From contig NZ_FNTX01000002.1 of NCBI RefSeq assembly GCF_900105765.1, positions 1,364,001 to 1,428,000 of the forward strand: a DNA stretch of 64,000 nucleotides, read 5' to 3'. The notes under the pieces are model-generated. The model was given only the letters and a program-made list of their open reading frames with translations, did not search any database and had not been told where the DNA came from. Positions within the stretch are counted from its first letter, which is position 1, and the number at the start of each line of letters is the position of its first letter. Below are positions 29,476 to 48,012 of the stretch, in pieces. The stretch is from Ruania alba (lineage in GTDB: Bacteria; Actinomycetota; Actinomycetes; Actinomycetales; Beutenbergiaceae). The position numbers and the translations under genes were made by a program.

Positions 29476-29502
29476 TCCGAGCCTCCGCTCTTCGCCGCAC
29501 CC

Positions 29503-29584
29503 GTTGGAACGGACTTCCGTCATTCGAACGGGCTTCCGTGCGCACGAAAGGCCGTTCCAACGACGCAAGCCCGTTCGAATGCGG
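29503..29584. repeat. REP-like compound palindromic element, copy A
   Basis: Four half-units of about 17 bp, consensus CRTTSGAACGGRCTTCC. Two are direct (29503-29520, 29521-29538) and two inverted (about 29546-29561, 29565-29581), so the block can fold into hairpins. It lies between the convergent ribokinase and patatin genes, where it may also act as terminator. It shares GCCCGTTCGAATGCGGGA exactly with copy B at 58916-58997. Confidence 0.75.
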
Positions 29585-29598
29585 GAGGGCGCCAGGTC

Positions 29599-32207: not shown

Positions 32208-34271
32208 TCAGCTGTCGATCGTCGAGGCGAGGGAGGCGTGGAGATCGTCGACCGTCGTAACCGGCAGATCGCACACGAACCCCCGGCACACATACGCCGC
32301 TGAGTGACCGTCGATGCGCTCGCGGCTGTCCAGCAGTCCCGGGGGAGCAACGTTGTGGTCGGTGTCGGGCGCCGAAGCGGCCACAACCTTGCCCGAGCCC
32401 GGTCGAACTGGCTCGGTACCACCGTCGAACGCCAGCACCAGGCCCGGGCTGGTCGCGGCCCGTGCCACCGCGATCATCTCGCGAGCGACCGCGTCGTCGC
32501 CGACCACGGCCACCTGCACCGGCCCGCTCGCCGCCGCCTCCGCCGCGGCCAGGAACCAGCCCGCGAATCGCGGGTCCTGTGCCGCGATCTCACCGCCGGC
32601 ACCGATCGCGGCCTCGGCCTCGGCACGCCATCGCCCGGTCAGTGCCGAGAAGGTGAGCAGCGCGCCGGCCAGGGACGAGGTTCCGCTCGGTTCGGCGTTG
32701 TCGGTGCGCCCGCGCATCCGCAGCACCAGCCGCTCCCCGTCCTCAGCGGTGTCGTAGAACGCGCCGTCGGGGGAGCGGAACTGCTCCAGCGCCGTCGCGA
32801 GCACGTCCTCGGCGAGGCCCAGCCAATGCGGCTCGCCCGTGGCCTGGTACAGGGCGAGGAGCCCCTCGGCGACGTTGCCGTAGTCGTCGGCGACGCCGTC
32901 CGCCTCACCCACCCGGCCATCTCGGGAAGCGCGACGCAGGCGGAGGTGACCTGCGCCGTCGGGGGTGGCGTGGGTGAGCACCAGCTGGGCGCACCGGCGC
33001 GCCGCCTCCAGCCAGGACGGCTCACCCAGGAGCGCGCCCGCCTCGGCGAGCGCCGCGATCGCCATGCCGTTCCACGAGGTGACCACCTTGTCGTCCCGAG
33101 GCGGTTGCGGCCGGAGCGAGCGCTTCTCGAACAGGCTCAGACGCCAGCCCGGCCACTCCGGCGGTGGGTCCTCGAGCATGCGCAGCGTGGACGCGCCGCC
33201 CTCGAACGTGCCCTGCTCGGTGACCCCCAGCAGCGTGGCCGCCCGGGTGCCGTCAGCGGCGCCGAGCACCTCCGTGAACTGCTCCGGCGTCCAGACGTAG
33301 GTGAGGCCCTCGGTGCCCTCGGTGTCGGCATCGAGCGACGCCGCGAAACCGGCCTCGGGCGTGCGCAGGTCGCGGAGCAGGAACTCGGCCGTCTCCCGGA
33401 CCACCCGCTCAGCCAGCGGGGAACCCGTCGCGCGGTACCAGTGCAGGTACACCCGCAGCAGCTGGGCGTTGTCGGCGAGCATCTTCTCGAAGTGCGGCAC
33501 CACCCAGGCGGCGTCCACGCTGTACCGGGCGAACCCGCCGGCCAGCTGGTCGTAGATGCCGCCGCTGGCCATCGCCGTGCAGGTCGCCTCGACCAGGTCC
33601 AGGGCCCGGTCGTCACCGGTGCGTGCGTGGTGGCGCAGCAGGTGCTCGAGCACCATCGACGGCGGAAATTTCGGTGCGCCTCCGAAGCCGCCATGGTGGT
33701 GGTCGGCCTGGGCGAGCAGGCCGGTGATGGCGTCGCGCAACCCGGTGGTGCCGAGCGGTCCGTCCGCCAAGGCACCGGCCGGCGGGCGGGTGGCCTCCTG
33801 CAGTCGGGCGGTGATCCCGGCGGCCCCTTCGACCACCTCGTCACGCTTGTCCTGCCAGATCTCGGTGACCGCACGGAGCAGGTCGACGAACCGGTCCCGG
33901 GGGAAGTAGGTGCCGCAGTAGAAGGCGTGCCCGTCCGGGGTGAGCAGGCAGGTCATCGGCCACCCGCCCTGCCCGGTCATCGCGGTGGTGGCACGCATGT
34001 ACACGGCGTCCACGTCCGGGCGCTCCTCCCGGTCCACTTTCACGGGGATGAAGGACGCGTTGATCACCGCGGCCACCTGCTCGTCCTCGAAGGACTCGTG
34101 CGCCATCACGTGGCACCAGTGACACGCGGCGTAGCCGACAGACAACAGGATCGGAACCTCCCGCCGTCGGGCCTCCGCAAAGGCAGCCTCACCCCACTCG
34201 TGCCAGTCGACCGGGTTGCCGGAGTGCTGGAGGAGGTAGGGGCTCGTCGCCGCTGCCAGTCGGTTTGCCAC
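32208..34271 (-). CDS. DUF255 thioredoxin-fold protein (YyaL/SSP411-like)
   Basis: A 687-residue protein. The N-terminal thioredoxin-like domain begins with [19 protein letters not shown] and has a CxxC-type site in [16 protein letters not shown]. The rest is an (alpha/alpha)6-barrel of the six-hairpin glycosidase type, with [20 protein letters not shown]. It is a widespread family with unresolved activity; a redox or epimerase/isomerase role has been suggested from folds. The GTG start follows AGGAG and AGGAA. The length matches the family. Confidence 0.9.
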
Positions 34272-34467
34272 TTCCTGTCACTCCTGCCATTGATGGTTGC
34301 GTCCCGGTCTTGCTGGGTGGCGCACCCGTGAGGATGGGAGGTTTTCCGCACGGCCGGTTGTGAGGATCGCTACCTCCCACCCTAGGTGTAGCAGGCGTGG
34401 TCGCGATGGTGTGGCTCGACTGGGTTGCTGTCTCCGGCCTGTGCCTCACCCGCTCCTGGGGAATGCC

Positions 34468-34731
34468 TCACCACGCGTCGAAGACGCGGGCGATCTCCGC
34501 CGGATCGACGAAGGTGCCGAATGCCACCTTGGCTCGCTCGACGCTGACGGGGTCCCGCAGCACGTCGGTGGTCCAGTCGGCGCTCTGGCGCACATCAACT
34601 CCGACCTCGTCGTGGTCGAGGAATTCCGCAATGCGCGCAGTGTCGCTCGGGTCGGCCACGGTCATGAGCCGCCTGACCACGGTGCGGTCGGGGGACCAGG
34701 CCACGACCGCCGTCGTGAGGTGATCAGGCAT
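34468..34731 (-). CDS. Hypothetical protein (87 aa)
   Basis: An 87-residue product of unknown family (TAVVAWSPDRTVVRRLMTVA at the start, FVDPAEIARVFDAW at the end). Codon use is strongly GC-rich at third positions, unlike a random frame. The ribosome site is weak (GCGAG). There are no membrane segments or cysteines. It stands alone between the DUF255 gene and the glycan island. Confidence 0.5.
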   Translation of the reverse strand: MPDHLTTAVVAWSPDRTVVRRLMTVADPSDTARIAEFLDHDEVGVDVRQSADWTTDVLRDPVSVERAKVAFGTFVDPAEIARVFDAW

Positions 34732-34902
34732 CTCGCCAGCACAGCACAGCGGACTCCCGCGCGGCGGAGCGTACCCACAGCCTGTGGATATCGCAGGATA
34801 TGCCGCGAATCTCGTGACGCGCTGCGGGCGGGCACGGAAGAGCGCAACCGGGCAACAGCATCCTGACTGCTAGCTCCTCCCGCGCATCATCGGTGGAGTG
34901 AA

Positions 34903-37077
34903 CTAGGCTCTGCGTACGATGAGGCCGTCCTTGGCTGGGAGGGTCAGCGAGGTTCCCAGTGGCTGGCCGTTGTTGACCACCGGATCCTGATCCGGTGTGC
35001 CTTGTAGTCGCGTCAGGCCCTGGTCGGGGAACTCTGAGGCCAGATCGAAAGTCTGGTCGTGGTTGGAGGGGTTGGCGAACGTGACCCCTCCCTCGAAGGC
35101 GCGGTAGACGGTATCGGCACTGTTGTGCGCGGTGAGCCGCTCGATGACGATCTCTTCGGTTCCTTCCACCTCGAAGTGAAGGTGAACTGGTCCGGCTGCC
35201 AGGTCCCGGAAGTAGAACCGGGCCATGAAAGCGTCCGGATCGATCCAGGTGAACAGTTGCTCTCCATTGCCTTCGGCGTCGATGGCGCTGAGGTAGAGCC
35301 GCCGCCCAATGGTGGAAGGGTAGTCGGCGAGGGGCGTGCCTGTGGCTGACATGACCAGCAGCAGGTCGCCGCCGGGGTGGTCGATCGAGCCCCACTCGAA
35401 CTGCTGGAAGTGTGGCTCCGGGCTGGGCTCGGGGGCCGCCCCGTGATAGGTCGCTACCAGGCGTGGTGAGTCTCCCGAACCCAGATCGCGCGTGAATGTC
35501 ATGTTCGTTCCGGTGAACTTGGACACCATCGACTCGCGCCAGGAGACTCCAGCGCCGGTGAGGAGGTCAGGCTGGCGTTCGGCCAGATGGACCGGGTCCG
35601 CCAGGGGTGCGCCGAGCCAGTTCAACTCGTTGAGGTTGCCCTTGACCAGTTCGTCGAAGGGTCCCAGGATATGGCCTGGGCGTGGCGGACGCTTGGTGAA
35701 GGTGAAGCCGGCGCCGAGCACCAGGGATGCCGCGAGATTGAGGCGCAGATCGCGGTAGTCGATGTCTGCGGATCGCTCGCCCCGGTACTTGTAGTTGATG
35801 TAGTTGAACGCCGTGTCGTCGGACCTGGTGACCCAGAAGCCGATCCGGTTGAGGGCTGACGACCAGTCCACGTACTCCCTGTCGACCAGGGATGGGAAAC
35901 CTTCGGCTTCCATGCCGAGGACGCCGAATCCACGCTGGTTGTTGAGTTCGTTCTGGCCATCGCCCATGATCACTTTGTTGGGCAGTAGTGCCCGGAGCTT
36001 CTGGGAGAACTCCAGGCTTCCGATGCCGTAGGTGTTCACGCCGTCGACGTACATTCCGCCGGGCTGTCCGTCACCATTGGCATCGGCGTCTTCGGCAGGT
36101 TGCCCTCCGCCGTCGGTGTGCTCGATGGCTCGGAAGTTGAAGACATCGAACTCCATGCCGTCGAAGCTCTCCAACAGACCACCGGGGTTGAACAGCCCTG
36201 CCAGGTCCTCGGCCAGCGCGTCCCCGCAGTTGCGACCCGCGGCATCGGTGGGACAACGTGTGGAGAAGTTGTAGCTCCACAACAGGTTCGACAGATGTGG
36301 CGGACCCCACGGACCGGTGACCACGTGCGGCGCCAAGTACGCACCGGCCGGCCAGGTCACCGCCGAGGTGCCGAACAGGCCACGCCGAACCGTGATGGTG
36401 CTGGCCGCTGCATCGATGCCCACGAGCTGCACCTGTTCAGCGACCGACCAGTCCGGGCGGCCATCCTCCCCCACTGCGGTGATACAGATGTCGTCGCCCC
36501 GGTCTCCGCGGCGGCCGGCGCGCATGGTGAACATCGCCGTATCACCGACCTTGATCACCGTGGCATCGGCACCCACCGACTCGGTCGACTGCGTCCCCGC
36601 GCGATACAGCCAGTGCCCCGCAAAGAATCCCTCCGTTCCATACAGTGGGTCGCGCCCCGAGCCGTTGTAGTGCAGCATCACGGCCTTCTCAGGGTGGCGC
36701 TCCTTGAACCGGTTGAAATACACCACATTGTCCGGGCTCACCCAGTCGCTGCGTGTCTCCTGCAGCACCTTCCCCTGAATTCCGTTCAGGGGAAGGAATG
36801 TCTCCTCCCACTCGTCATACTCCAACCCTCTGCCCCCGATGAGGACCTCGCTACTGCGGAAGAAGAACGAGCGAGGGAACCCGCCGGAGAACAGCGGCAG
36901 ATCTCTGGGGGTCCCCAGGGTCGGCGAGGGCGCAGCCCACGCTGTCGGCGCTGTCGTGCCCACGAGGCCGCCCAACACAGCCAAGCCTGACGCCACTCCC
37001 AGCTGGCGACGCGTGATCCTCAAGGGGGCGCTGGTGTTCGGACGTTCGGTCGAGTGATTGTTGTCCTGTGCTGTCAT
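34903..37077 (-). CDS. Tat-exported protein of unknown family, possible glycoside hydrolase
   Basis: About 724 residues. A twin-arginine signal (ITRRQLGVASGLAVLGG, cut after AWA) indicates export of the folded protein. The mature part has no family I can name, but its layout resembles a TIM-barrel hydrolase followed by beta domains. Acidic residues follow strand-like segments: FDGMEFDVFNF, GGMYVDGVNTYG and GVLGMEAEGFPSL. The C-terminal ~200 residues look beta-rich. It overlaps the upstream GH27-like gene (long form, start 37128). I prefer ATG 37077, with GGAAG before it. It probably acts on the glycan served by the neighbouring sulfatases. Confidence 0.75.
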   Translation of the reverse strand: MTAQDNNHSTERPNTSAPLRITRRQLGVASGLAVLGGLVGTTAPTAWAAPSPTLGTPRDLPLFSGGFPRSFFFRSSEVLIGGRGLEYDEWEETFLPLNGIQGKVLQETRSDWVSPDNVVYFNRFKERHPEKAVMLHYNGSGRDPLYGTEGFFAGHWLYRAGTQSTESVGADATVIKVGDTAMFTMRAGRRGDRGDDICITAVGEDGRPDWSVAEQVQLVGIDAAASTITVRRGLFGTSAVTWPAGAYLAPHVVTGPWGPPHLSNLLWSYNFSTRCPTDAAGRNCGDALAEDLAGLFNPGGLLESFDGMEFDVFNFRAIEHTDGGGQPAEDADANGDGQPGGMYVDGVNTYGIGSLEFSQKLRALLPNKVIMGDGQNELNNQRGFGVLGMEAEGFPSLVDREYVDWSSALNRIGFWVTRSDDTAFNYINYKYRGERSADIDYRDLRLNLAASLVLGAGFTFTKRPPRPGHILGPFDELVKGNLNELNWLGAPLADPVHLAERQPDLLTGAGVSWRESMVSKFTGTNMTFTRDLGSGDSPRLVATYHGAAPEPSPEPHFQQFEWGSIDHPGGDLLLVMSATGTPLADYPSTIGRRLYLSAIDAEGNGEQLFTWIDPDAFMARFYFRDLAAGPVHLHFEVEGTEEIVIERLTAHNSADTVYRAFEGGVTFANPSNHDQTFDLASEFPDQGLTRLQGTPDQDPVVNNGQPLGTSLTLPAKDGLIVRRA

Positions 37078-37124
37078 GGTGATCACTTCCGTTCTGTGTG
37101 GTTTCAGAGCCGGGCGGATACGCC

Positions 37125-38510
37125 TCATGGGCCGGGTGTGTATCGCAGGAACCAGACCCCGTCGGGCGGGAGTTCGGTGGTGAGGTCGTCACCGATTGGC
37201 TGGGTGCCGAGATCTTGTGCGGCCCAGACGTCATAGAGATGCACCGTGGATCCCGGGACATTCAGGTGGTGCAGCGAGGTGGCCACGGTCGTGGCTTCTT
37301 CGCTGCGGTTGAAAAATCCGACCCAGCCCGATCCTGATTCGGCTGCGTTCGGTGCTAGCCATGCCTCGACCTCGTCCCGCTCCCACGCCAGATGACCAAC
37401 CACCCCATTCTGGTTGCACGCCAACACGTCAGCGTCGGTGATCAGTGCTAGATCGAACGGATCGGACGTGGGAAGGTCGCCGCCCATGAACAACGGTGAG
37501 GCGGCCAGTGCGCGCATGGTGATGAAGGTCCGCCGTTGGTCGCGTGTGAGCGAGCAGTCTCTCTCCAGCCCTCGTCCCTGGAGAGCTACGTCGTTGACTA
37601 CGGGTGCTTGTGCGGGGGTGCGAACCTTGAGTCGGCCGAACGGGATCATGTCCAGATCTGGCCAGAACCCCGGGCCGCCTCGGTCCTGCCACTGTTTCCA
37701 GGCGTCGAAAGCGATGTCGAGGTCGTCGCGTTCGTCCCAGATGTCACGGGTGGTGCGCAGCAGGTTCGCGTGGCGCTGGTAGGTGTCGACCAGGTCGGGG
37801 TCAGTGTCCTGGCCCGGGGACAGGCTCAACACGATGGGCCGGTCGCACCTGGCGATGGCCGTGGAGACCGCCTCAATCTCGGCTGGAAATGCGGTGATGT
37901 CGTCAGCCTTGATGTAGTCGACCCCCCACGAAGCCAGGAGAGCAATCCATCCGTCGTAGTATTCCTGGGCGCCTGGCTTGGACATGTCGATGCCGTAGTT
38001 GGTGTCCCACCACCGGCAGACGTCGCTGGTGTCGGCGATGTCAGCGGCGCGGTGCTCGGTGCCCTCGATCGGGAGGTTGAGCTCGACCGCCTTGCGCGGG
38101 ATTCCACGCATGATGTGGATCCCAAACTTCAGGCCGTACGCGTGTGTGCGCTCGATCAGCGGCTGCATCCCGTGAGGGAAGTATGTCGTGGCAGGCAGGT
38201 ATCGCCCGAACTTGTCAAGGCGGCAGTCCTGCGCCTTCCGCCGCTGTGGCCGTTTGGTTCCGGGGACTAGGTCACGTTCCTCGAACCATCCGCCGTCGAC
38301 CACGAAGTACTCGTAGCCATGAGGTTGCAGGATTCTTGCCATGTGGTCCAGGTTGACCATCGCGGCTTCCTCGTCGAGATACACCACGTAGCTGTCGAAG
38401 CTGTTCCACCCCATCGGCGGCCTGGGGCACGGAGCTTTGGCATCGAGCCGTGGACCAGTGCCGGAAGCCGGCGTGGCTCGGGACCCAACAACTGCGTCGG
38501 TCATGATCAA
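37125..38510 (-). CDS. GH27-like alpha-galactosidase family protein
   Basis: A 461-residue TIM-barrel protein. The N-terminal PPMGWNSFDSY signature of clan GH-D is followed by FVVDGGWFE and GLKFGIHIMRG. The nucleophile Asp lies in DYIKADDIT and the second Asp in LRTTRDIWDE. A small beta domain ends the protein. No signal peptide is seen, so it should act in the cytoplasm on imported oligosaccharides, releasing alpha-galactose or a similar residue. The motif DYIKADD differs from the usual DYLKYDN, so specificity may differ. A GTTC-N8-GAAC-like dyad lies 33-48 bp upstream. Confidence 0.88.
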   Translation of the reverse strand: MIMTDAVVGSRATPASGTGPRLDAKAPCPRPPMGWNSFDSYVVYLDEEAAMVNLDHMARILQPHGYEYFVVDGGWFEERDLVPGTKRPQRRKAQDCRLDKFGRYLPATTYFPHGMQPLIERTHAYGLKFGIHIMRGIPRKAVELNLPIEGTEHRAADIADTSDVCRWWDTNYGIDMSKPGAQEYYDGWIALLASWGVDYIKADDITAFPAEIEAVSTAIARCDRPIVLSLSPGQDTDPDLVDTYQRHANLLRTTRDIWDERDDLDIAFDAWKQWQDRGGPGFWPDLDMIPFGRLKVRTPAQAPVVNDVALQGRGLERDCSLTRDQRRTFITMRALAASPLFMGGDLPTSDPFDLALITDADVLACNQNGVVGHLAWERDEVEAWLAPNAAESGSGWVGFFNRSEEATTVATSLHHLNVPGSTVHLYDVWAAQDLGTQPIGDDLTTELPPDGVWFLRYTPGP

Positions 38511-38542
38511 CGGTGATCCTTACCTGTAGCGATCCGAACTAT

Positions 38543-38558
38543 ATTCGCATATAGGAAC
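38543..38558 (-). promoter_or_regulatory. Predicted IclR operator upstream of the GH27-like operon
   Basis: Read on the minus strand, GTTC-CTATATGC-GAAT lies 33-48 bp upstream of ATG 38510. It overlaps a CTATAT-TCGC-ATATAG dyad (38539-38554). The spacing matches the sites at 44123, 46697 and 47134. Confidence 0.55.
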
Positions 38559-38688
38559 TCGTTTACCCTAGAACGGGGAGTCTGTGAGCGTCAAGACCAG
38601 AGTTGACTCATCTGAAGTCTCCGCTTGTGGGGTGCCCTTGCCTCAGGTGAGGACCTCCGCGTGAGCACGACGGCGGATGGAACTGACG

Positions 38689-38840
38689 ATGAGTCAACGC
38701 AAGACTGTGACGAAGAAAAGGCACTGGCCTACCGGAGAGTTGACCGGGCCGGGAAGACCCGGGTCCTGTACGAGCTGGTTGACCTGACCGGCTGACACCG
38801 GGACTACACGCGCGCCGCACGACGAGATGCGCTGGTGGTC
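38689..38840 (+). pseudogene. Transposase N-terminal remnant
   Basis: A start-like segment MSQRKTVTKK is followed, after a frame change, by KALAYRRVDRAGKTRVLYEL and VDLTG, then an in-frame stop before HRDYTRAARRDAL. This resembles the N-terminal helix region of a DDE-type transposase/integrase family with the pattern YRRAxRAxKxRILDEL...GWHRDxARxAL. At least one frameshift and one stop are present and the catalytic part is gone. Confidence 0.55.
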
Positions 38841-39044
38841 ACACCCAGATCAGGCTCCCCGCGACCCGCACTTATGCCGGAAAACTCACATTTTGCGACG
38901 TTATGCCCGTCGATTCGGAGATCCATGCACAGCGTCATTCTCCCTCACTTCGACGGGTCAACTCGTTCGAGGTCGTGTCAGCCCTGAAGCGCGTGGAACC
39001 GTGGACACAGTCCCTCTTTCGCACACGTCAAGATGGCTACGATG

Positions 39045-40577
39045 TCACGCACCGCTGATTCTGGGTCCCGGGAGCGGGTCGCTCCAAGCTAGTTGGTCGA
39101 CGAGTTCCGTGGTCAGGTCAGATCTCACCTGAGCGTAATCGTGATCGTTCCAGAGGTTCGTGGTCTCGTTCGGATCCGATTCGAGGTCGAACAAAATCCC
39201 TTCGGTGTACCCCGCATACTGGACCAGTTTGTGGCGGCGGCTGACCACAGTGCGCATGCGGGTCATGGTTCCCGGGGTCCAGTCCTCGTCGAACTCCACC
39301 AGTGCTGGTTGGTCGGGTAGCGTCTCGGTGCCTTCCAGGTGCGGACGCAGGGATCGTCCTGGCAGGCCGGGCCAGTCACTTCGGGCGCCCTCACGATTGT
39401 TGAAGGCGTCGCAACCAACTCCGGTGTAGTCCAGGATGGTCGGCACGAGGTCGAGGTGGCTGGTGATTGCTGGGTCTGGTCCTCGCGCGGTCCCGTGCGG
39501 GGTGCGCCAGATGAAGGGGACACGGAGCAGGTCTTCGTAGGGCCAGACGCTTTTGCTCAACAGGTGATGGGCCCCCAGGTATTCTCCGTGGTCGCTGAGG
39601 AACACGATGATGGTGTTGTCATACTTGCCGCCCTGCCGCAGGGTGTGGAGGACGCGGCCAATGCAGTCGTCGATGTGGCTGATCATTCCGTAGGTCTGGG
39701 CCACGATTTCTCTCAGTTCGGCTTGGTCGAACTGGGTGAAGTGTGCGACTTCGGTCCGTCGCCGCGCGAGCCATCGCACCGGATCCGCCGGGTCATTCCA
39801 GGTGGGGCTGAGGGTGATCGAAGCGGGATCGTAGCGTTCGCTGTATGGTCTGGTCGCTGCGAACGGGAGGTGGGGATCCGGGAACGAGCACGACAGGAAG
39901 AAGGGCTCGTCGTCCTCGACCGTGCTCAAGAAGTCGCACGCACGGGAGGCAATCCAGTCGTTGTAGTGCAGCCCGGCGGGGACCTCGAGACGATAGCCCA
40001 GGCCGGTCGCGGCGTAGGCCCGCTCTGGGGAGTACAGCTCGCGCACTCCTGGGTGTTCACGATCCAGCCAGTTCGCATAGTCGCCGAAGACACCGCGGCC
40101 GTGACCGCCAACGAAGTCGGTGGTCTGATAGCCGTAGTAGCCGGCCGGAAGCCCGGTGATCTCGCCACTGTCCCACGCTGCCCTCGACTCCCACGAATGA
40201 GCATCGACATCGGCGGGCAGGCCGAAGGGCTGATGATGCAGCTTCCCGACCGCATGAGTGCGATACCCCGACTCGGCCAGCACTCCCGGCATCGTGGTGG
40301 TCTGCTCATCAAGGACCATGCCGTTGGAGATACAGCCGTGCTGGCGTGGTGTGCGGCCGGTGATCAAAGTTGCCCGGGACGGCATGCAGACGGGATTGTT
40401 GCAGTAGGCACGTTGGAAGCTGTGGCCGGCGTCGGCCAGGGCGTCGAGGTTCGGCGTTTCTACGTCGGGGTTGCCGTTGCAGGCCAGGGATGCAGCACCC
40501 ATCTGGTCAACAGCGAAGACCACCACGTTCGGCCGCGGGCCAGGCTGCGCAGGCTGGGTAGGATCGGCTGGTGGCAT
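39045..40577 (-). CDS. Sulfatase (S1 family)
   Basis: About 510 residues of the alkaline-phosphatase superfamily. The N-terminal PNVVVFAVDQMGAASLACNG supplies metal ligands. The formylglycine motif CMPSR (C64) is followed by LITGRTPRQHG, and IIVFLSDHGEYLGAHHL provides the second metal site. The Cys would have to be converted by a formylglycine-generating enzyme, not encoded here. No signal peptide is seen, so it probably acts inside the cell. It is co-transcribed with the ABC importer (gap 77 bp). ATG 40577 has AGAAGGG before it; the frame is open to 40643. Confidence 0.92.
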   Translation of the reverse strand: MPPADPTQPAQPGPRPNVVVFAVDQMGAASLACNGNPDVETPNLDALADAGHSFQRAYCNNPVCMPSRATLITGRTPRQHGCISNGMVLDEQTTTMPGVLAESGYRTHAVGKLHHQPFGLPADVDAHSWESRAAWDSGEITGLPAGYYGYQTTDFVGGHGRGVFGDYANWLDREHPGVRELYSPERAYAATGLGYRLEVPAGLHYNDWIASRACDFLSTVEDDEPFFLSCSFPDPHLPFAATRPYSERYDPASITLSPTWNDPADPVRWLARRRTEVAHFTQFDQAELREIVAQTYGMISHIDDCIGRVLHTLRQGGKYDNTIIVFLSDHGEYLGAHHLLSKSVWPYEDLLRVPFIWRTPHGTARGPDPAITSHLDLVPTILDYTGVGCDAFNNREGARSDWPGLPGRSLRPHLEGTETLPDQPALVEFDEDWTPGTMTRMRTVVSRRHKLVQYAGYTEGILFDLESDPNETTNLWNDHDYAQVRSDLTTELVDQLAWSDPLPGPRISGA

Positions 40578-40654
40578 GAATGGACCCTTCTTTGCTCGGT
40601 GTTGATCACGAATGGTGCGAGATTGATCTGGTGCGTCGGCCACGCTGGTCGATC

Positions 40655-41566
40655 TCAGCCGCGGACGGCGCCGGTCATGCCTTCAATGAAATAACGCTGC
40701 AAGAACAAGAACACGATCACAATCGGGAGCAGGCTGATGGTGGATGCTGCGGTCATGCCCGTCCAGTCGGTCATGTTCTCGCCTTGGAACGAGTACACCC
40801 CGACAGCGAGGGTACGAGCATCAGGATTGGACAAGGTCAGCACCAACGGGATCAAGAAGCTGTTCCACGACCGCATCAACGTGAGAATGACTGCGGTGGC
40901 GACGACGGGTTTAGTCAACGGCAACATGATCGTAAAGAACTGGCGGACAAACCCTGCACCATCGATCTGAGCGGCTTCCTCAATCTCGTTCGGGATCTGT
41001 CGAAAGTATCCGGCGAACAGCAGGATGATCATCACGTGGGCACCACCGGACTCGGCCAGTACCACCCCCCACAACGATCCGCCCAACCCGAGGTTGTTGA
41101 TCAGATCGAACAACGGAATGATGGTGTAGCCCTCCGGGACCAGCACGGTCGCGATGAACGCTGCGATCACAATCTTCTTGCCGGGGAAGGTGTAGCGACC
41201 CAGCACGTATCCGATCATCGACGAGGTTGCGACCACGATGAAGATCGTGGCCACGGTGACGAACACGGTGTTGCCAAAGTATCGGCCGATGTCGACCTGG
41301 TACCAGGCTCGCTGCCAGTTCTCCCAGTGAAACGACTCCGGGATCAAGCTGGTGCTGCCAAACATCTCACTGTTGGACTTGAACGAGCTGGTCACCATCC
41401 ACACGAACGGATAGACCCACGTCAACGCCACCGGAACCATCAACACATACGGCCAGATCGCCAGGATCCTGTGCTTGTACGATTTCCGTAGCCGCGGCGC
41501 CGGGTCGGTACCGGGCGATTCGTGCACGCGATCCTCCACCTCGGTGCCAGGTCCCACAACTGTCAT
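40655..41566 (-). CDS. Sugar-type ABC transporter permease (MalG-like)
   Basis: A 303-residue permease with six helices, the first in ILAIWPYVLMVPVALTWVYP, and the EAA loop IPNEIEEAAQIDGAGFVRQF. It forms the channel with the permease encoded just upstream, whose stop is 3 bp away. Family CUT1. No ATPase gene is nearby. Its place between the binding protein and a sulfatase suggests import of sulfated oligosaccharides that are then desulfated inside. Confidence 0.92.
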   Translation of the reverse strand: MTVVGPGTEVEDRVHESPGTDPAPRLRKSYKHRILAIWPYVLMVPVALTWVYPFVWMVTSSFKSNSEMFGSTSLIPESFHWENWQRAWYQVDIGRYFGNTVFVTVATIFIVVATSSMIGYVLGRYTFPGKKIVIAAFIATVLVPEGYTIIPLFDLINNLGLGGSLWGVVLAESGGAHVMIILLFAGYFRQIPNEIEEAAQIDGAGFVRQFFTIMLPLTKPVVATAVILTLMRSWNSFLIPLVLTLSNPDARTLAVGVYSFQGENMTDWTGMTAASTISLLPIVIVFLFLQRYFIEGMTGAVRG

Positions 41567-41569
41567 GAG

Positions 41570-42520
41570 TTACTGCCCTCCCATCGCTGCACGCAACGAC
41601 CGCATCCGCCGCACACCCCACAACTGCAACAACGCGACCAGCAACACCGACACCCCAAACACCACCGCCACAGCCGAGGCGTACCCGAACCGGGCTTCCA
41701 GCCCAGCGTCCGGCGCAAACGCGATCCGGAAGATGTACAGCTCCACCAGCTCCGTAGCCAGGTTCGGCCCGCCCCGAGTCATGGTCTGCACCAACGGAAA
41801 CGTTTGCAGCGCGCTCGCGAACGTCAGCAACGAGATCAACAACGCAAACGGGACGATCAACGGCATCGTGATGGTCAGATGGCTCCGCAGACCTGAAGCG
41901 CCGTCGATCCAGCTCGCCTCATACAACTCCCGCGGCACCGTTTGCAACGCGACCAACCAGAACACCATCGTGATACCCAGGCCCTTCCACACCCAGACCC
42001 CGGCCACCGACCACAACGCCAGGTCAGGATTGCCCAAGAAGTTGACGGGCTGCTCCAGCAACCCGATCCCGGTCAGGATCTGGTTCAGCGGGCCATCGAA
42101 CGGGTTCAACAACAACACCGCTACCGCACCCATCACCGCTGCGGTGGTCACCACCGGCAGGAAGATCATGGTGCGAAACACTGCTCGCAATCGCATCGCC
42201 GCGTTGTTCAGGACGATCGCTATGAACAACGCCAACACCAACTTGAACAACGATGCAACGATCGCGAACTGGAACGTGCGACCCATCGCAGCCCAGAAGT
42301 ACTCGTCCCGCACGACCTCGACGTAGTTGGCCCACCCCACAAAGGTCGGGTCCCCGACCCCGGACCACTCCTGGGCCGACAACACCCATGACGCAACCGT
42401 GGGATAGAACGTGAACAACACGCTCAACACCAACGACGGCGCCATGAATACATAACACCACCGCGCACGCCACAGTTTCGTCGCAAGCCCAGAGCTCTGT
42501 TGCAGGTCAGAGAGCGTCAT
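41570..42520 (-). CDS. Sugar-type ABC transporter permease (MalF-like)
   Basis: About 316 residues with six helices (first in CYVFMAPSLVLSVLFTFYPT) and the EAA loop VPRELYEASWIDGASGLRSH. The open frame runs up to 42841 inside the binding-protein gene, but ATG 42520 (MTLSDLQQ) overlaps that gene's stop by 14 bp and begins the permease-like part. It is partner of the MalG-like permease that follows. Confidence 0.92.
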   Translation of the reverse strand: MTLSDLQQSSGLATKLWRARWCYVFMAPSLVLSVLFTFYPTVASWVLSAQEWSGVGDPTFVGWANYVEVVRDEYFWAAMGRTFQFAIVASLFKLVLALFIAIVLNNAAMRLRAVFRTMIFLPVVTTAAVMGAVAVLLLNPFDGPLNQILTGIGLLEQPVNFLGNPDLALWSVAGVWVWKGLGITMVFWLVALQTVPRELYEASWIDGASGLRSHLTITMPLIVPFALLISLLTFASALQTFPLVQTMTRGGPNLATELVELYIFRIAFAPDAGLEARFGYASAVAVVFGVSVLLVALLQLWGVRRMRSLRAAMGGQ

Positions 42521-44039
42521 AGTCTGCGCTGGTGTAGTCCTCGGTCGGATCAAAGTTAGGGAAGATCCACTCGTCCCGTGAGATCTCCGCACCTTTTGCC
42601 GTTGCCGCTGCGATAGCGTCGTCCAACGCCCGGTCGTAACCGTCGCCCAGATCCTGCAGCGCCTGACCCACATCAGACACGTCACCGACCATGATCGCCT
42701 CCAGTACCTGCGGGGTGCGCATCCTCGGTTCCTCCAGCTCCTCGAAGACCATGAGCGCGTCAGTGTTGCGGACCTGAACATACGGCGGAAGGACGACCTG
42801 CTCGTGCTCCGCCATCGCACGCGCGCGGGGACCCGTGACAACGGCTGCGAGAGCCTCCCGCGCCTCGGGGAACAAGGAAGGAAAGGTCACTCCCTTGACC
42901 TGTGCACTGGCGATCTGACCCTCCAAGCCACCCATGTAGGAGTAGATGTCGCCGATCACCTCGGGATTGGCGGTCTCGGCGTTCACCCAGTAGCCGCCCT
43001 GAGGATCCCTCGCGAGGGTCGGAGGCGAGTCCACAGATGGCCGCGGCGGTCCCGACACCCCGAACTCGAAATCGGGGCTGTCGTTCTGCCACCCTTCGAT
43101 CATCCAGCCACCATCGATGATCATGCCAACACTCCCGGTCACCACGCGGGGCGGCGCCTCCTGTGCAGTCATCGACACCGACCCCGGCAACAAGCTGCCA
43201 TCCGCCTGCATCGCCAGAATCAGCTCGACAGCTTCCCGATATTCGTCACTGCTCGCAATGTGTCGGCCGGTCTGGGTGTCGATGTCCCCCGGTCCGCCCA
43301 CCCCGGCGGTTTGAGTGAGCCGTCGCACATTGTTCGTCATCCGTACGCCCGGCAGTGCGAATCCATAGAACTCCCCATCACCGACCTCGGTGATCTTCTT
43401 GGCCGCGTCCCGAAACTCATCCCACGTCGGCGTTTCACTCAGTTCCACCTCGGCCCGCTCGAGGATCGAGGTGTTGCTCAGCAGGAACGTCGCCTGAAGC
43501 TTTCGGGTGGAGAGAGGGACGGAATAAGTCTTGCCATCAAACAGATGTGCGCCGGGAACGAAGATGCCCTCGGGGAACTGAGCCTTCCATTCGTCGAAGT
43601 TCGGGATGATGTCGTCAAGCGGCCGAACCCAACCCGACGCGACCGCATCCGGCACCAATCCACCAGACATCAGGAACATGTCGTGAGCGGTCCCATTCCG
43701 GACCGCCAATGGCAAAATCTCCCTGATCCTGGGATGCGGCGCACCCTCATACTCGATGGTGACATTGGGATGCTTCTCCTCGTATGCACCCCCGAACGCA
43801 GCCCAGAAGGCCGGATGGCTGTCCGGCGTTCCCAGAACCCGTAGCTCCACATCACCGGTCGGTAGCTCCCCCGCCGGATCCGGAATCTCGAACTGCCCCA
43901 CCTCAGTAGACGGAGCAGCACCCTCCGGATCACACCCGGTCAACCCCAATGCCCCCGCTGCTGAAGCAGCCGCTGCTCCAGCCAGAAGGTGGCGTCGGCT
44001 CACACTGCGGCCCCGCAAGCTCTGTGAGATTCCATTCAT
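42507..44039 (-). CDS. ABC transporter substrate-binding lipoprotein with twin-arginine signal
   Basis: About 510 residues. The signal SRRHLLAGAAAASAAGALGL joins a Tat-type RR pair to a lipobox (LTGC), so it may be exported folded and then lipidated. The mature protein follows the extracellular solute-binding family 1 pattern (ELRVLGTPDSHPAFWAAFGG; VVTGSVGMIIDGGWMIEGW). It should bind an oligosaccharide for the two permeases downstream. ATG 44039 has GGAGG 5 nt upstream. A GTTC-N8-GAAC dyad lies 84 bp before it. Confidence 0.92.
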   Translation of the reverse strand: MNGISQSLRGRSVSRRHLLAGAAAASAAGALGLTGCDPEGAAPSTEVGQFEIPDPAGELPTGDVELRVLGTPDSHPAFWAAFGGAYEEKHPNVTIEYEGAPHPRIREILPLAVRNGTAHDMFLMSGGLVPDAVASGWVRPLDDIIPNFDEWKAQFPEGIFVPGAHLFDGKTYSVPLSTRKLQATFLLSNTSILERAEVELSETPTWDEFRDAAKKITEVGDGEFYGFALPGVRMTNNVRRLTQTAGVGGPGDIDTQTGRHIASSDEYREAVELILAMQADGSLLPGSVSMTAQEAPPRVVTGSVGMIIDGGWMIEGWQNDSPDFEFGVSGPPRPSVDSPPTLARDPQGGYWVNAETANPEVIGDIYSYMGGLEGQIASAQVKGVTFPSLFPEAREALAAVVTGPRARAMAEHEQVVLPPYVQVRNTDALMVFEELEEPRMRTPQVLEAIMVGDVSDVGQALQDLGDGYDRALDDAIAAATAKGAEISRDEWIFPNFDPTEDYTSADYDAL

Positions 44040-44122
44040 GACGGCCTCCATTGGCGGTCGATGCTTCCCAGTTGGCACCAATTGATGCAGGTCCCCGGCT
44101 CACTCGGCAGGACCGCTCAGAT

Positions 44123-44138
44123 GTTCACTATTACGAAC
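44123..44138 (-). promoter_or_regulatory. Predicted IclR operator upstream of the ABC/sulfatase operon
   Basis: GTTC-ACTATTAC-GAAC, a 4-bp dyad with 8-bp spacer, lies 84 bp upstream of the binding-protein start. It is nearly the same as the site before the second sulfatase (GTTC-ACTATAGC-GAAA). Confidence 0.6.
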
Positions 44139-44154
44139 CATGTTCGCTCCGGAC

Positions 44155-44446
44155 ATTACCCATCGGAAATGGAGCGTGTCAAGGCGCCCCGATCGGGCAT
44201 GGAAGACCGTGCCGGTGGTATCTGCGTCGCGGAAGGTCACCGCGCGGCGCATGGCGGTTTCGACCAGATCGGTGCGCAAGTTGTCGGCGAAGGTGTCCCC
44301 GATGATCCGGTGCGAGCCCCGTCACGCACAGCGCACAGGTACAACTAGCCCTGACCGGTGGCCAGGTAGGTGATATCGGAGGTCCACACCGCTTTCAACT
44401 CACCTCGGTCGCACGGCGTCCGACCGAGTCCGGAATCGCGTGCGTG
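44155..44446 (-). pseudogene. IS3-type transposase remnant
   Basis: LKAVWTSDITYLATGQG, the start of an IS3-type integrase core, ends in a stop. In a shifted frame HRIIGDTFADNLRTDLVET then MRRAVTFRD and GTVFHA continue the same core. The catalytic DDE set is incomplete and there are several frame changes, so the element is dead. No terminal inverted repeats or target duplications were recognised. Confidence 0.6.
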
Positions 44447-44559
44447 GCAGCATCCTGGCGGTACTTCGGGGTGTCGATCTTCCTCTTCGCACCCCTGAGG
44501 CATCCTCTCCTGCCAGGGGCGAACCTGGCGATCAGGATGTCCACTCAACGGGGCCAGAC

Positions 44560-44885
44560 TCAATTCCAACCAGCCGGTTGACAGCCGCGGGTTGACCGCC
44601 TCAGTGTCGTCCACGACCGGCTTCACGTTGTCCGGGACCAGCACCCAGAACACGCCGCCGCCTCACAACCGGCGATCATCCGTGACGGGCTGGGCATAGG
44701 TCAGCCACACGCGAGTAGATCAGGGCGTGCATCTTCCACTGCCGCCCGGCGTCGCCATCGTTGACGCGGACGGCGGCTCTCCCTGGCCCGGTAGCCGCTC
44801 CGCGCGGGGTCGCGAAGCGGTGCAGCGTCCGGTACAGCACGACACCCTGCCGGGCCAGCAGCTCCTCGATCTTCACGATCGACAA
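44560..44885 (-). pseudogene. IS21-type (IstA) transposase remnant
   Basis: KIEELLARQGVVLYRTLHRF then AAVRVNDGDAG match the N-terminal half of IstA proteins. VLVPDNVKPVVDDTEAVNPR lies in a different frame and matches a later segment. The DDE core between them is lost, and no istB gene is present. It was probably inserted in or next to the sulfatase fragment immediately upstream. Confidence 0.55.
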
Positions 44886-44989
44886 CCCCGCCCGATCCCA
44901 TGGTCATGGCAGGCAACACTTGCGCATTGCCCGGTGCTTGGCTGAGCTGATCGGTGAGCATGCTGGCGCGTGCGGGGACACGCAGCAGG

Positions 44990-45116
44990 GTGCTTCGAGA
45001 CAGCCCCACAGGTCGTCGAATGCGGGCGAGTCGACTTCCTCATTGCCGTAGCAGTCGAGGCCGCACCAGCGATGCTGGTCACCGAAGACCACGAGTAGGT
45101 CGGGTCGGGTCGGCAT
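44990..45116 (-). pseudogene. Sulfatase N-terminal fragment
   Basis: From ATG 45116, MPTRPDLLVVFGDQHRWCGL then DCYGNEEVDSPAFDDL is the metal-binding N-terminus of an S1 sulfatase. Homology stops after ~36 residues, where IS-like sequence begins. The CxPSR active-site region and the rest are gone. Confidence 0.65.
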
Positions 45117-45201
45117 CCGACTGCTTGAACGTGACGGGCGGATGATCAGATCGCCCGCTGGTGTGCGGCTGCGTCTGTATATCCCGGCCGCAGGGCGGCA
45201 G

Positions 45202-46656
45202 TCACAACGGCGCCCAGGTTCCCGCCCGGTAACTGCGCCAGGAATGCGCGTCACTGCCGGTGTACCGGTAGGTCTCGAAGGTGTCGCCGTCACCGAGGAT
45301 CCGGGGGTCGCGCGTACTGACGAGCGTGTGCTCCAGTTCCTGCCGCAACGACTTCTTCGTCGCCTGATGGCCGGGGTCCTCCGCGAGGTTGTGCAGGCAG
45401 GAGGGGTCGCGGTCGATCCGATAGAGCTCCTCGGCGGGGCGTTTGGCGAACGCCAGGTTGAAGTAGCGGTCGGTTTCGTTCTGGTAGTGCTGTTCGAGCA
45501 CCAGGGACTTCGTTGGAGAGGCGTCGACGTTGGTGAACCCGGTCTCAGGGTTGCCGGCCGGCCACCGTTCGGGATGGAAGTTGCACACATAGAGGTACTC
45601 GGGAGTGCGTATGCATCGCACCGGATACCCGAGGTCGTCTTCGCGACCGAGGTCGTGGCGCTCCCGGCCCATGTAGACCCGGTCGCGGTCGGGGTCGATC
45701 ACACCTGAGGATGTCGATCGGAGGACGTCGGTGAGGGGATTCCCTTCCATCTGCTCACCTGGACTGAGACCGGCGGCGTGGAGCAGTGTGGGTGCGAGGT
45801 CGATAAAGCTGACCAGGTCTTCGACCGTGCGTCCACCCGGAACTTCGCGCGGCCAGCTGATCGCGAGAGGGAGCCGGAAGTCCTCCTCGTACATCTGCCC
45901 CTTGACGCGTGGAAACGGCATCCCGTTGTCCGAAGTAACGATCACCAGAGTGTTCTCGAGCTCACCGGTGCGATCCAGAAGATCGAGCATCTGGCCCAAG
46001 TGCTGGTCGAACCACTCGACTTCGTAGGCATAGTCGAGCAGGTCGTTGCGTACGACTTCGTGGTCGGGCAAGTACGGGGGCACTGTGACGTCAGCGGGAT
46101 CCTTCCCGGCGCGCATGCCTTCGCCCTCGACGTAGGACCGGTGCGGCTCGTGACCTCCGTACCAGAAATAGAACGGGGCGCCGTCAGGGCGATCGTTGAG
46201 GAATGCCTCGAAGTTTCCGGCGTAGTCGATGGGCCGGATCCCCGTCTTCTCCGGCGGTGTCAACCTCGCGTCGTTGTACTCGGGTCCGGCAGGGTTCCGG
46301 GAACAGCCACCGGCTCGCCAGTCACCCGGGCCCCATCCCTTCCCCGTGTACCCGACGTGATATCCCGCATCATCCAGAAGGTCGGGGAACACCGCGAACT
46401 TCGATGGGAAGATCCCGAAGTGGTTGCACGCCTCCTCGAGCTGCCACGAGTGCCTGCCGGTCAGGATGCTCGCTCGAGATGGAGCGCACTTGGGGTTCGA
46501 CGTGAAGGCGTTCATGAAGAGAACACCCTGCTCCGCTACCCGATCGAAGTTCGGGGTGTGCACGAACGAATGACCGTACGCACTCATGTGGGAAGCATCG
46601 TCAGCGATGGCGAACAAGATGTTGGGTGCCTGCACGGTTCGTGGTCGTCCCTTCAT
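45202..46656 (-). CDS. Sulfatase (S1 family, heparan-N-sulfatase-like)
   Basis: A 484-residue protein. The N-terminal metal motif APNILFAIADDASHMSAYGH is followed by the formylglycine site CAPSR (C57) in SNPKCAPSRASILTGRH. YVGYTGKGWGPGDW, FYFWYGGHEPHRSY and LVIVTSDNGMPFPRVKGQMY complete the active site. The pattern around it (two Asp at the start, HEPHR) resembles N-sulfoglucosamine-type sulfatases more than the other sulfatase of the island. It lacks a signal peptide. It depends on a formylglycine-generating enzyme not seen here. A GTTC-N8-GAAA dyad lies ~40 bp upstream. Confidence 0.92.
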   Translation of the reverse strand: MKGRPRTVQAPNILFAIADDASHMSAYGHSFVHTPNFDRVAEQGVLFMNAFTSNPKCAPSRASILTGRHSWQLEEACNHFGIFPSKFAVFPDLLDDAGYHVGYTGKGWGPGDWRAGGCSRNPAGPEYNDARLTPPEKTGIRPIDYAGNFEAFLNDRPDGAPFYFWYGGHEPHRSYVEGEGMRAGKDPADVTVPPYLPDHEVVRNDLLDYAYEVEWFDQHLGQMLDLLDRTGELENTLVIVTSDNGMPFPRVKGQMYEEDFRLPLAISWPREVPGGRTVEDLVSFIDLAPTLLHAAGLSPGEQMEGNPLTDVLRSTSSGVIDPDRDRVYMGRERHDLGREDDLGYPVRCIRTPEYLYVCNFHPERWPAGNPETGFTNVDASPTKSLVLEQHYQNETDRYFNLAFAKRPAEELYRIDRDPSCLHNLAEDPGHQATKKSLRQELEHTLVSTRDPRILGDGDTFETYRYTGSDAHSWRSYRAGTWAPL

Positions 46657-46687
46657 CGAAAGAGGAGGTGGTCGACTGGCGATCGGC

Positions 46688-46712
46688 GTGAACGATGTTC
46701 ACTATAGCGAAA
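46688..46712 (-). promoter_or_regulatory. Predicted IclR operator upstream of the second sulfatase
   Basis: GTTC-ACTATAGC-GAAA (46697-46712) overlaps a perfect GTGAAC-GAT-GTTCAC palindrome (46688-46702). It lies 32-56 bp upstream of ATG 46656. Confidence 0.58.
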
Positions 46713-46880
46713 TTCGAGGCAGTTGTGTCGTTGGTCGATTCTCCGTCGACCGTGCACACGGAAGATCGCGACATCGATCAGAACGATCAACCGACTGGCC
46801 TCAGCCTCAACCCGCAACACTGCATCGAAGTTGCCTGCCGGATCCGCCGGTACGCCCTCGGGCGAGAAGCAGGGCCCAGG

Positions 46881-47095
46881 GACGGATCCGGCAAACGTGG
46901 TGATGTTCGTCGGACCAGATGAGCGCGGCATCGCTTCATTGCAACGGCACCGACGAGGTCGTCGCCCCAATATCGACGCCTTGACCCGGGCCAGATGCAA
47001 CGGTCGATCGGGCCTACTGCAGCAACCTGTGTGCATTGCCTGCTCGCGCGAGCTTAATCACCGGCGTGGCGCCTCGCCAGCACGGATGCGCGGGA
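46881..47095 (+). pseudogene. Decayed sulfatase N-terminal segment
   Basis: NVVMFVGPDERGIASLQRH then PNIDALTRA matches NVVVFAVDQMGAASLACNG then PNLDALADA of the sulfatase at 39045. In a shifted frame RAYCSNLCALPARASLITG followed by VAPRQHG matches RAYCNNPVCMPSRATLITG. Several indels break it, and CMPSR has become CALPAR. It is a dead relative lying on the opposite strand to the intact copy. Confidence 0.65.
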
Positions 47096-47133
47096 TTTGG
47101 ACACATATCCGCTCTGCCGTTTCGGCGGCCAGA

Positions 47134-47149
47134 GTTCGTTATGATGAAC
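47134..47149 (+). promoter_or_regulatory. Predicted IclR operator upstream of iclR (autoregulation)
   Basis: GTTC-GTTATGAT-GAAC, extended to AGTTC...GAACT, lies 42-57 bp upstream of the IclR start. It shares arms and spacing with three other sites in the island. Confidence 0.55.
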
Positions 47150-47190
47150 TTGAGTCGGAAAGACAGGCAGGCGCGAACGAGGGAGCCGTG

Positions 47191-48012
47191 ATGGAACGCA
47201 CCGGACGAACCAACCACAGCGTGGATCGATCGCTTGCTGCCGTGCAGCTGGTCGCCAGGGCGGGGCGGTCCATGCGTTTCGTGGATCTGCAACGGCGTCT
47301 GGATGTGCCGAAGGGTACCCTGCACAATCTCCTGGGGTCCTTGGTCGCAGCGGGGTTCCTGGAGCGCGATTCGGACGGCTACACGATCGGCATCGGCGCG
47401 TTCGAGGTGGGGGCGGCCTTCCATCGACACCGGTCGATCCATGATGTGGCTGGTGTCGTGCTCGATCGACTCGTCGAGACCTTCAATGAGACCGTGCACT
47501 TTGGCGCCCTCCGCGATGGTGATGTGATCTATGTCGATCGACGGGACTGCACGCATGAGGTGCGCTATGTTGCGCACCTTGGCGACCGGAAGCCCGCCTA
47601 CGGCACTGGTCTCGGCAAGGCGATGCTGGCCACCTTGAGCGATGAGCAGATCGTCAGCCTGTATCCTGAGGAGCTCCCGACGGTCACGAGCCGCACCATT
47701 CGGACGCGGGATGCGCTGCTTCATCAATTGGCGGCCGCCCGTCGGCGAGGGTATGCGATTGAGGACGAGGAGTCGACGCCAGGTGCGCGGTGTATCGGGG
47801 TCGCGATTACCACGGACTTGGGATTGTACGGGATTAGCATCACCGTTCCCGTCCAACGATGCACGCTGGAGCAGCTCGAGGAGCATCTCGGTGACCTTCA
47901 GGAGGCTGCTCGAGAGATCGGCTCGAAGCTGTCGGCTGTCGAATGGCTGAACGGACCAGGTGCGCGCGAACTGAGCCCTCGTGCGGCCGCCACGGACCCG
48001 GGAGGGGCGTAG
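47191..48012 (+). CDS. IclR-family transcriptional regulator
   Basis: About 273 residues. The N-terminal winged helix (HSVDRSLAAVQLVARAG; MRFVDLQRRLDVPKGTLHNL) is followed by the IclR effector domain with VHFGALRDGDVIYVDRRDC, AYGTGLGKAMLATLSDEQI and GYAIEDEESTPGARCIGVAI. Members bind short palindromes as dimers or tetramers and respond to small metabolites. It is the only regulator in the glycan island and the likely reader of the GTTC-N8-GAAC-like dyads. ATG 47191 follows GAGGGAG; the open frame upstream (to 46723) belongs to the sulfatase relic. Confidence 0.92.
   Translation: MERTGRTNHSVDRSLAAVQLVARAGRSMRFVDLQRRLDVPKGTLHNLLGSLVAAGFLERDSDGYTIGIGAFEVGAAFHRHRSIHDVAGVVLDRLVETFNETVHFGALRDGDVIYVDRRDCTHEVRYVAHLGDRKPAYGTGLGKAMLATLSDEQIVSLYPEELPTVTSRTIRTRDALLHQLAAARRRGYAIEDEESTPGARCIGVAITTDLGLYGISITVPVQRCTLEQLEEHLGDLQEAAREIGSKLSAVEWLNGPGARELSPRAAATDPGGA

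Follow-up and report, generated by a model that had tools for sequence, protein, structure and literature searches.

The genome of the actinobacterium Ruania alba (G000; 4,830,506 bases (4.83 Mb) in two contigs) contains a gene cluster that looks like a sulfated-glycan utilisation island, and each transcription unit of this island is preceded by a short dyad of the GTTC-N8-GAAC type. The reading that we favour, with a probability of about 0.75, is that these dyads are predicted operators of the island's own IclR-type regulator, which would act locally, control its own gene and probably work as a repressor. This reading follows from several observations: the sites stand before all four transcription units, their refined core motif at one mismatch or less is confined to the island, a third box accompanies the dyad at three of them at a fixed spacing of 3 nucleotides (nt), and the sites match the published operator consensus of the IclR family. 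Throughout, the window denotes the whole stretch of DNA that was analysed, 64,000 nt in length (C2:1364001-1428000 of the source genome), and positions given without a contig or locus name refer to it.

A preliminary description of this DNA had reported four dyads, at 38543, 44123, 46697 and 47134, one for each transcription unit of the island and 30-100 bp upstream of the gene starts. All four are present at these positions, and their placement before four out of four units is as described. In the same order, the site centres are found 46.5 nt upstream of the ATG at 38504 (a gene for a GH27-like glycoside hydrolase), 91.5 nt upstream of the ATG at 44039 (a gene for an ABC solute-binding protein, SBP), 48.5 nt upstream of the ATG at 46656 (sulfatase 2) and 49.5 nt upstream of the ATG at 47191 (iclR). 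With all of their boxes included, the sites are as follows:

38536..38558, minus strand: three-box site GTTC-N8-GAAT-N3-GTTC in the promoter of the GH27-like operon; the dyad has two mismatches to the core pattern
44123..44145, plus strand: three-box site GTTC-N8-GAAC-N3-GTTC in the promoter of the SBP operon; no mismatches to GTTCRYWWWWRYGAAC
46690..46712, minus strand: three-box site TTTC-N8-GAAC-N3-GTTC in the promoter of sulfatase 2; it contains the dyad 46697-46712
47134..47149, plus strand: two-box dyad GTTCGTTATGATGAAC in the iclR promoter, a putative autoregulatory site; one mismatch to GTTCRYWWWWRYGAAC

The site of the GH27-like operon (38543) is the weakest of the four.

The dyad had originally been proposed as a shared marker of the regulon in its bare GTTC-N8-GAAC form, and this part of the proposal had to be narrowed. 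With one mismatch allowed, the bare dyad has 68 matches in the window versus 19.3 expected from shuffled sequences, an excess that appears to be codon-driven; we rejected it as operator evidence because it is too common. As a marker the dyad holds once its RY-W4-RY core is included (GTTCRYWWWWRYGAAC). At one mismatch or less, this refined motif is found at three places in the entire genome, all of them in the island, and at none in the reversed control; position 44123 is its sole exact match. Allowing up to two mismatches raises the number of places to 23 (reversed control, 5). An open reading frame (ORF) script assigned the 19 two-mismatch places outside the island to coding (16) or intergenic (3) DNA, these calls referring to script-predicted ORFs and not to annotated genes; two of the three intergenic places turned out to lie inside long ORFs (L120, L128) and one over a start codon (L112). 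For 47134, and for two sites at the related locus L109 considered below (4261 and 7692), the 'coding' labels produced by overlapping ORFs were overridden using Pfam-supported genes. The genome scan, a check proposed in the preliminary description, and the inspection of the 19 outside places indicate that the refined motif is not shared to the same degree by unrelated promoters. Two other patterns are less discriminating than GTTCRYWWWWRYGAAC: GTTCNNTATNNNGAAC matches exactly twice, each time in the island, and at one mismatch or less gives 26 forward and 21 reverse matches (control, 3 and 4); for the perfect palindrome GTTCGCTATAGCGAAC with three mismatches allowed, two of the 12 places belong to the island (control, 7).

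One might argue that the dyads play no operator role and that their symmetry arose by chance where AT-rich -10 elements stand in DNA of high G+C content, as the TAT-rich cores of the sites could indeed be -10 elements and the bare dyad is common. Yet -10 elements precede most genes, and the motif at one mismatch or less is nevertheless restricted to the island; moreover, chance symmetry leaves third boxes at a fixed spacing unexplained. We therefore regard it as a highly improbable explanation.

The third box is a feature absent from the preliminary description. It consists of a GTTC (GAAC on the other strand) separated from the dyad by exactly 3 nt, and it is present at 38543, 44123 and 46697; thus, three of the four sites have the group-2-like GAAC-N3-GTTC pair that characterizes three-box operators. 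An exact third box at N3 accompanies six of the 68 dyads in the window, three in the island and three in an unrelated repeat, and the other 11 spacers tested give 0-2. Genome-wide, exact KTTC-N8-GAAY-N3-GTTC occurs at 11 places (control, 0), the three in the island having AT-rich cores. As for the other eight, four are clustered at C2:2210171-2210240 in a G+C-rich repeat, one is at C1:1934609, and three further places with similar letters may belong to the same G+C-rich repeat. Taken as a whole, the third box supports the operator interpretation.

As a separate observation, there is a family of G+C-rich inverted/direct repeats built of GTTCGAA(T/C)..GGAAC..GTTC, with copies in the window at ~29500-29585 and 58915-59000 and in L130 at ~1668-1745, the last of which seems, by eye, to lie inside an open frame. 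Such repeats yield GTTC-N8-GAAC matches unrelated to IclR.

The sites also agree with published operators of the IclR family. The main text of Suvorova and Gelfand (2021; PMC8222616) gives GKTYCRYW3-4RYGRAMC as the group-1 consensus, and the island dyad at 44123 matches its KTYC-RYW4RY-GRAM core without a mismatch. When K-T-Y-C-R-Y-W4-R-Y-G-R-A-M was searched for in the window at one mismatch or less, only 44123 (0), 46697 (0) and 47134 (1) were found; in other words, three of the four sites follow the group-1 pattern and 38543 falls outside it. According to the same text, site centres are mostly located between -20 and -80 from the start codon, a zone that includes three of the four centres (46.5, 48.5 and 49.5 nt) and leaves out that of the SBP operon (91.5 nt). 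Regulators of the family are described there as generally controlling their own gene and one or two adjacent operons, and the island resembles them in having sites close to gene starts and in its predicted combination of autoregulation with control of adjacent operons. The 16-bp subgroup (iv), NGTYCRAW4TYGRACN, has A and T where the island sites mostly have C/T and A/G (PMC8222616); therefore, the island sites fit general group 1 and not this subgroup. A similar single motif is that of NpdR of Rhodococcus opacus (GTTCMRYATMRTGAWS), which also comes from an IclR-family regulator of an actinobacterium, is 16 bp long and has a GTTC-N8-GA frame around an AT centre; NpdR itself governs trinitrophenol use, and the likeness concerns the motif (PMC8222616). 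Three-box sites combine group-1 dyads with those of group 2 (TGRAACAN1-2TGTTYCA), are tied to alternative dimerisation and have been predicted for 32 orthologous groups (PMC8222616). They are known for PcaU, PobR and HmgR, whose operators, like those of the island, join a two-box dyad to a third box; unlike the island, these regulators serve aromatic-compound pathways, and in the motifs listed for PcaU and PobR the dyad is spaced differently (PMC8222616). The main text of this study gives no match to 'sulfatase' or 'galactosid', and our literature search found no paper on an IclR regulator with a sulfatase, an ABC transporter and a palindromic operator.

The product of 47191-48012 belongs to the IclR family (HTH_IclR, 4.8e-12; IclR_C, 1.7e-38; both above the Pfam cut-offs). 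It could not be assigned to a named subgroup, all seven NCBIfam matches (including BhcR, KdgR, AllR, IclR and PcaR/PcaU) being under the curated cut-offs. The earlier statement that it is the sole regulator present is correct for the predicted island genes that were scanned and fails for the genome, where other IclR-like stretches exist (a first look gave 22 candidates). The identity of the binder is therefore deduced from proximity. This leaves room for another regulator encoded elsewhere in the genome, a different IclR-family protein, to which the dyads would belong, the adjacent iclR gene being incidental. Besides the 22 stretches, this alternative finds some support in the resemblance of IclR-family motifs to one another (PMC8222616) and in close pairs of dyads, chiefly two-mismatch ones, that occur in same-genus genomes without the island IclR. 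Among the matches listed, pairs in genomes without it are seen in G001 (C1:198059/198089, extending over 198059-198104), G002 (C1:99585/99665, over 99585-99680) and G005 (C8:19498/19516, over 19498-19531), the last combining one site with one mismatch and one with two, at a distance of 18 bp; all of them are probably sites of other regulators. The matches listed for the same-genus genomes G001-G005, which lack the gene, include 0, 1, 0, 1 and at least 2 places at one mismatch or less. On the other hand, one would expect a regulator of the resident genome to have further sites in other parts of it, and in R. alba the motif at one mismatch or less is found only in the island, including before iclR itself. 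Accordingly, we consider a regulator from elsewhere in the genome improbable.

The closest relatives of the island IclR that were found are 35-39% identical to it (L109 and L110). No orthologue was detected in seven genus mates at E<=1e-40 or in 23 other genomes of the family at E<=1e-45, and the order sample of 395 other genomes gave two matches at E<=1e-38 (best 4.1e-40 and 4.2e-39). Among 50 named loci, identity in the best of the longer matches is 35%, and a single stretch of 88 residues reaches 53%; for plasmids, where 20 of 74 records were listed, identity goes up to 37.6%. A Haliscomenobacter plasmid IclR gene adjoining a sulfatase gene was also considered and dropped, as it gave no match to the island IclR at E<=1e-6. 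L109 (genome G044, another family, 35% identity) has three dyads: at 7692 in the promoter of its own iclR (one mismatch), at 14224 before a sugar-type SBP gene of an ABC operon (two mismatches) and at 4261 before an ORF starting at 4232 (two mismatches). The L109 iclR gene was placed from its match to the island IclR, its start codon being identified by eye. For comparison, the 26 places at up to two mismatches in the ~2.9 Mb of G044 correspond to ~0.14 expected per 16 kb. Of the other IclR homologues tested, one (L010) has a two-mismatch site in the 400 nt before its gene and about ten have three-mismatch sites there. The initial suggestion that the dyads mark a putative IclR regulon is thus supported by the rarity of the refined motif, the match to the published consensus and the L109 sites, binding itself being predicted.

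With regard to mechanism, we infer the binder, the repression and the inducer as follows. An IclR dimer would bind the core dyad GTTC-RY-W4-RY-GAAC and, at three targets, might also contact the third GTTC box 3 nt away, either as a tetramer or by pairing its dimers in another way. As long as inducer is lacking, IclR would repress the SBP-permease-permease-sulfatase operon, the GH27-like operon and sulfatase 2, as well as its own gene through the two-box site, because it would cover the -10 element or the start of transcription. Binding of a glycan-derived, sulfate-pathway inducer to the C-terminal domain of IclR would then cause its release from DNA. Repression by occlusion suits the positions of the sites over the -10 or start region, as read by eye. 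In gene orientation, TATAGT is contained in two of the sites, those of sulfatase 2 and GH27, and TATGAT in that of iclR. For the SBP operon a possible promoter was also recognized by eye:

44153..44182, minus strand: possible promoter of the SBP operon, TTGACA (44182-44177), 18 nt, TAATGT (44158-44153)

The three-box site begins ~7 nt after TAATGT, about where transcription would start.

The main rival to repression is activation. The same IclR might bind the same sites and mainly activate, in the manner of the activators PcaU and PobR with their three-box sites, the third box being required for effector-dependent activation. In favour of this possibility, the IclR family holds both activators and dual regulators, and three-box sites are known for PcaU, PobR and HmgR (PMC8222616); in addition, an automatic scan reported no strong sigma-70-like promoter. 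The SBP promoter was omitted by that scan since its second hexamer matches at only 3/6 positions. However, TATAGT or TATGAT inside three of the sites and the location of the SBP site just downstream of TTGACA-N18-TAATGT, all read by eye, suit repression better, and we consider activation rather unlikely. The number of boxes might also set a hierarchy: the three catabolic units would be held by tight three-box sites via two alternative dimer pairings, and iclR, with its two boxes, would still be expressed while the targets are shut. We put this idea forward tentatively, as a possibility less likely to be right than wrong. By eye, the iclR promoter of L109 lacks a third box and its ABC operon has a tandem-like run of boxes, a pattern compatible with such a hierarchy.

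Several points weigh against the view that the dyads are operators of the island IclR. The GH27 site at 38543 is one of 20 two-mismatch GTTCRYWWWWRYGAAC places in the genome, and the third box is absent at 47134, in the iclR promoter. The GTTC and N8 parts of the pattern were taken from the preliminary description, and the third box was sought after the sites had been seen; the rarity of either is thus not a fully independent test. None of the three regions given to the automatic scan yielded a sigma-70-like promoter, so that the -10 elements overlapped by the sites are those recognized by eye. In G001-G007, G044 and G085, GTTCRYWWWWRYGAAC at up to two mismatches has 8, 20, 15, 21, 22, 8, 27, 26 and 1 places, respectively (reversed control: 5, 5, 2, 7, 5, 1, 10, 20 and 4); therefore, the GH27 site would not stand alone. 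L110 (G085, 39% identity) has no matching dyad, either 16-bp or 15-bp. The recognition helix, VPKGTLHNLL in the island IclR, is identical at 5/10 positions in L109 (IPKSSLHGLV) and at 6/10 in L110 (VPRSSLHALL), and helix similarity, judged from these sequences, does not explain the difference between the two loci; at such a distance the binding specificity may have changed. Finally, neither the eight genome loci with homologous SBP operons described below (20 kb read) nor two plasmid loci, from three plasmid records, contain the core motif at up to two mismatches.

The genes of the island and its remnants are the following:

34903..37128, minus strand: secreted-looking 741-aa protein, overlapping the end of the GH27-like gene (ORF)
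37125..38504, minus strand: GH27-like glycoside hydrolase (Melibiase_2 / Melibiase_C; Pfam)
39045..40643, minus strand: sulfatase 1 (Pfam Sulfatase, 1.4e-51), with a C-x-P-S-R motif in the translation
40655..41566, minus strand: ABC permease 2 (Pfam)
41570..42841, minus strand: ABC permease 1 (Pfam; ORF as listed)
42507..44039, minus strand: SBP gene, ABC solute-binding protein (SBP_bac_1; Pfam), first in the transport/sulfatase operon
45202..46656, minus strand: sulfatase 2 (Pfam Sulfatase, 4e-39), with a C-x-P-S-R motif in the translation
~46890..47090, plus strand: remnant of another sulfatase N-terminus with a broken frame, located between the sulfatase 2 and iclR genes (approximate ends)
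47191..48012, plus strand: iclR-type regulator gene, 273 aa (HTH_IclR + IclR_C; Pfam)

The true start of permease 1 is probably further downstream, since the listed ORF overlaps the SBP gene. An ATP-binding subunit was not found by Pfam among the scanned island genes. For the 741-aa protein there was no Pfam or NCBIfam match at E<=0.001 (DUF4859, at E 0.043, is under the cut-off), and its position beside the GH27-like gene makes a new glycan-active enzyme possible. Judging by the GH27-like, sulfatase and transporter genes, the substrate of the island would be a sulfated alpha-galactoside-type glycan.

The G+C content, profiled over 28,000-56,000 in 2-kb steps, is 0.61-0.65 across ~34,000-48,000 versus ~0.69-0.73 on both flanks; because of this lower value, we read the island as probably acquired DNA. 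Among plasmid records, sulfatase 2 is most similar to proteins of Persicobacter (51%) and Haliscomenobacter (41%), a similarity that hints at long-distance transfer. The sulfatase remnant at ~46890-47090 has 69% DNA identity over ~195 bp to part of the sulfatase 1 gene. By eye, a minus-strand frame at ~44920-45130 resembles yet another sulfatase N-terminus and then breaks off. Minus-strand frames at ~44170-44410 resemble what we take, by eye, to be a decayed IS3-type transposase end; three ORFs near this place have no Pfam match.

In the order sample, seven of the 395 other genomes have homologues of the SBP (31-36% identity); they occupy eight loci, all of which have the SBP gene, two permease genes and a sulfatase gene in this order. 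Homologues of the GH27-like protein (~38-48% identity) are present in 48 of the 395. At five of the eight SBP loci (L064, L066, L067, L068 and L070) a neighbouring gene reads, by its sequence, like a LacI-type regulator. These relatives share with the island the transporter and sulfatase genes and their order; they differ in the LacI-like neighbour and in having no core motif at up to two mismatches. Close to the two plasmid loci, from Phaeobacter and Shinella, there are LysR or GntR genes. This suggests that the transporter-sulfatase module is shared and that its regulator differs between lineages, being IclR in one and LacI-like neighbours in relatives. We also observed that TTAATCGAAATACCACG is common to the region before five homologous SBP-permease-sulfatase operons (L066-L070), four of which (L066, L067, L068 and L070) have a divergent LacI-like gene; it is possibly a LacI-type operator.

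The kind of regulation proposed here is already known, and it is otherwise ordinary local regulation. Nonetheless, the island represents a concrete, testable regulon for apparent sulfated-glycan utilisation, and its few natural IclR sites, some with two boxes and some with three, lend themselves to tests of the idea of alternative dimerisation.

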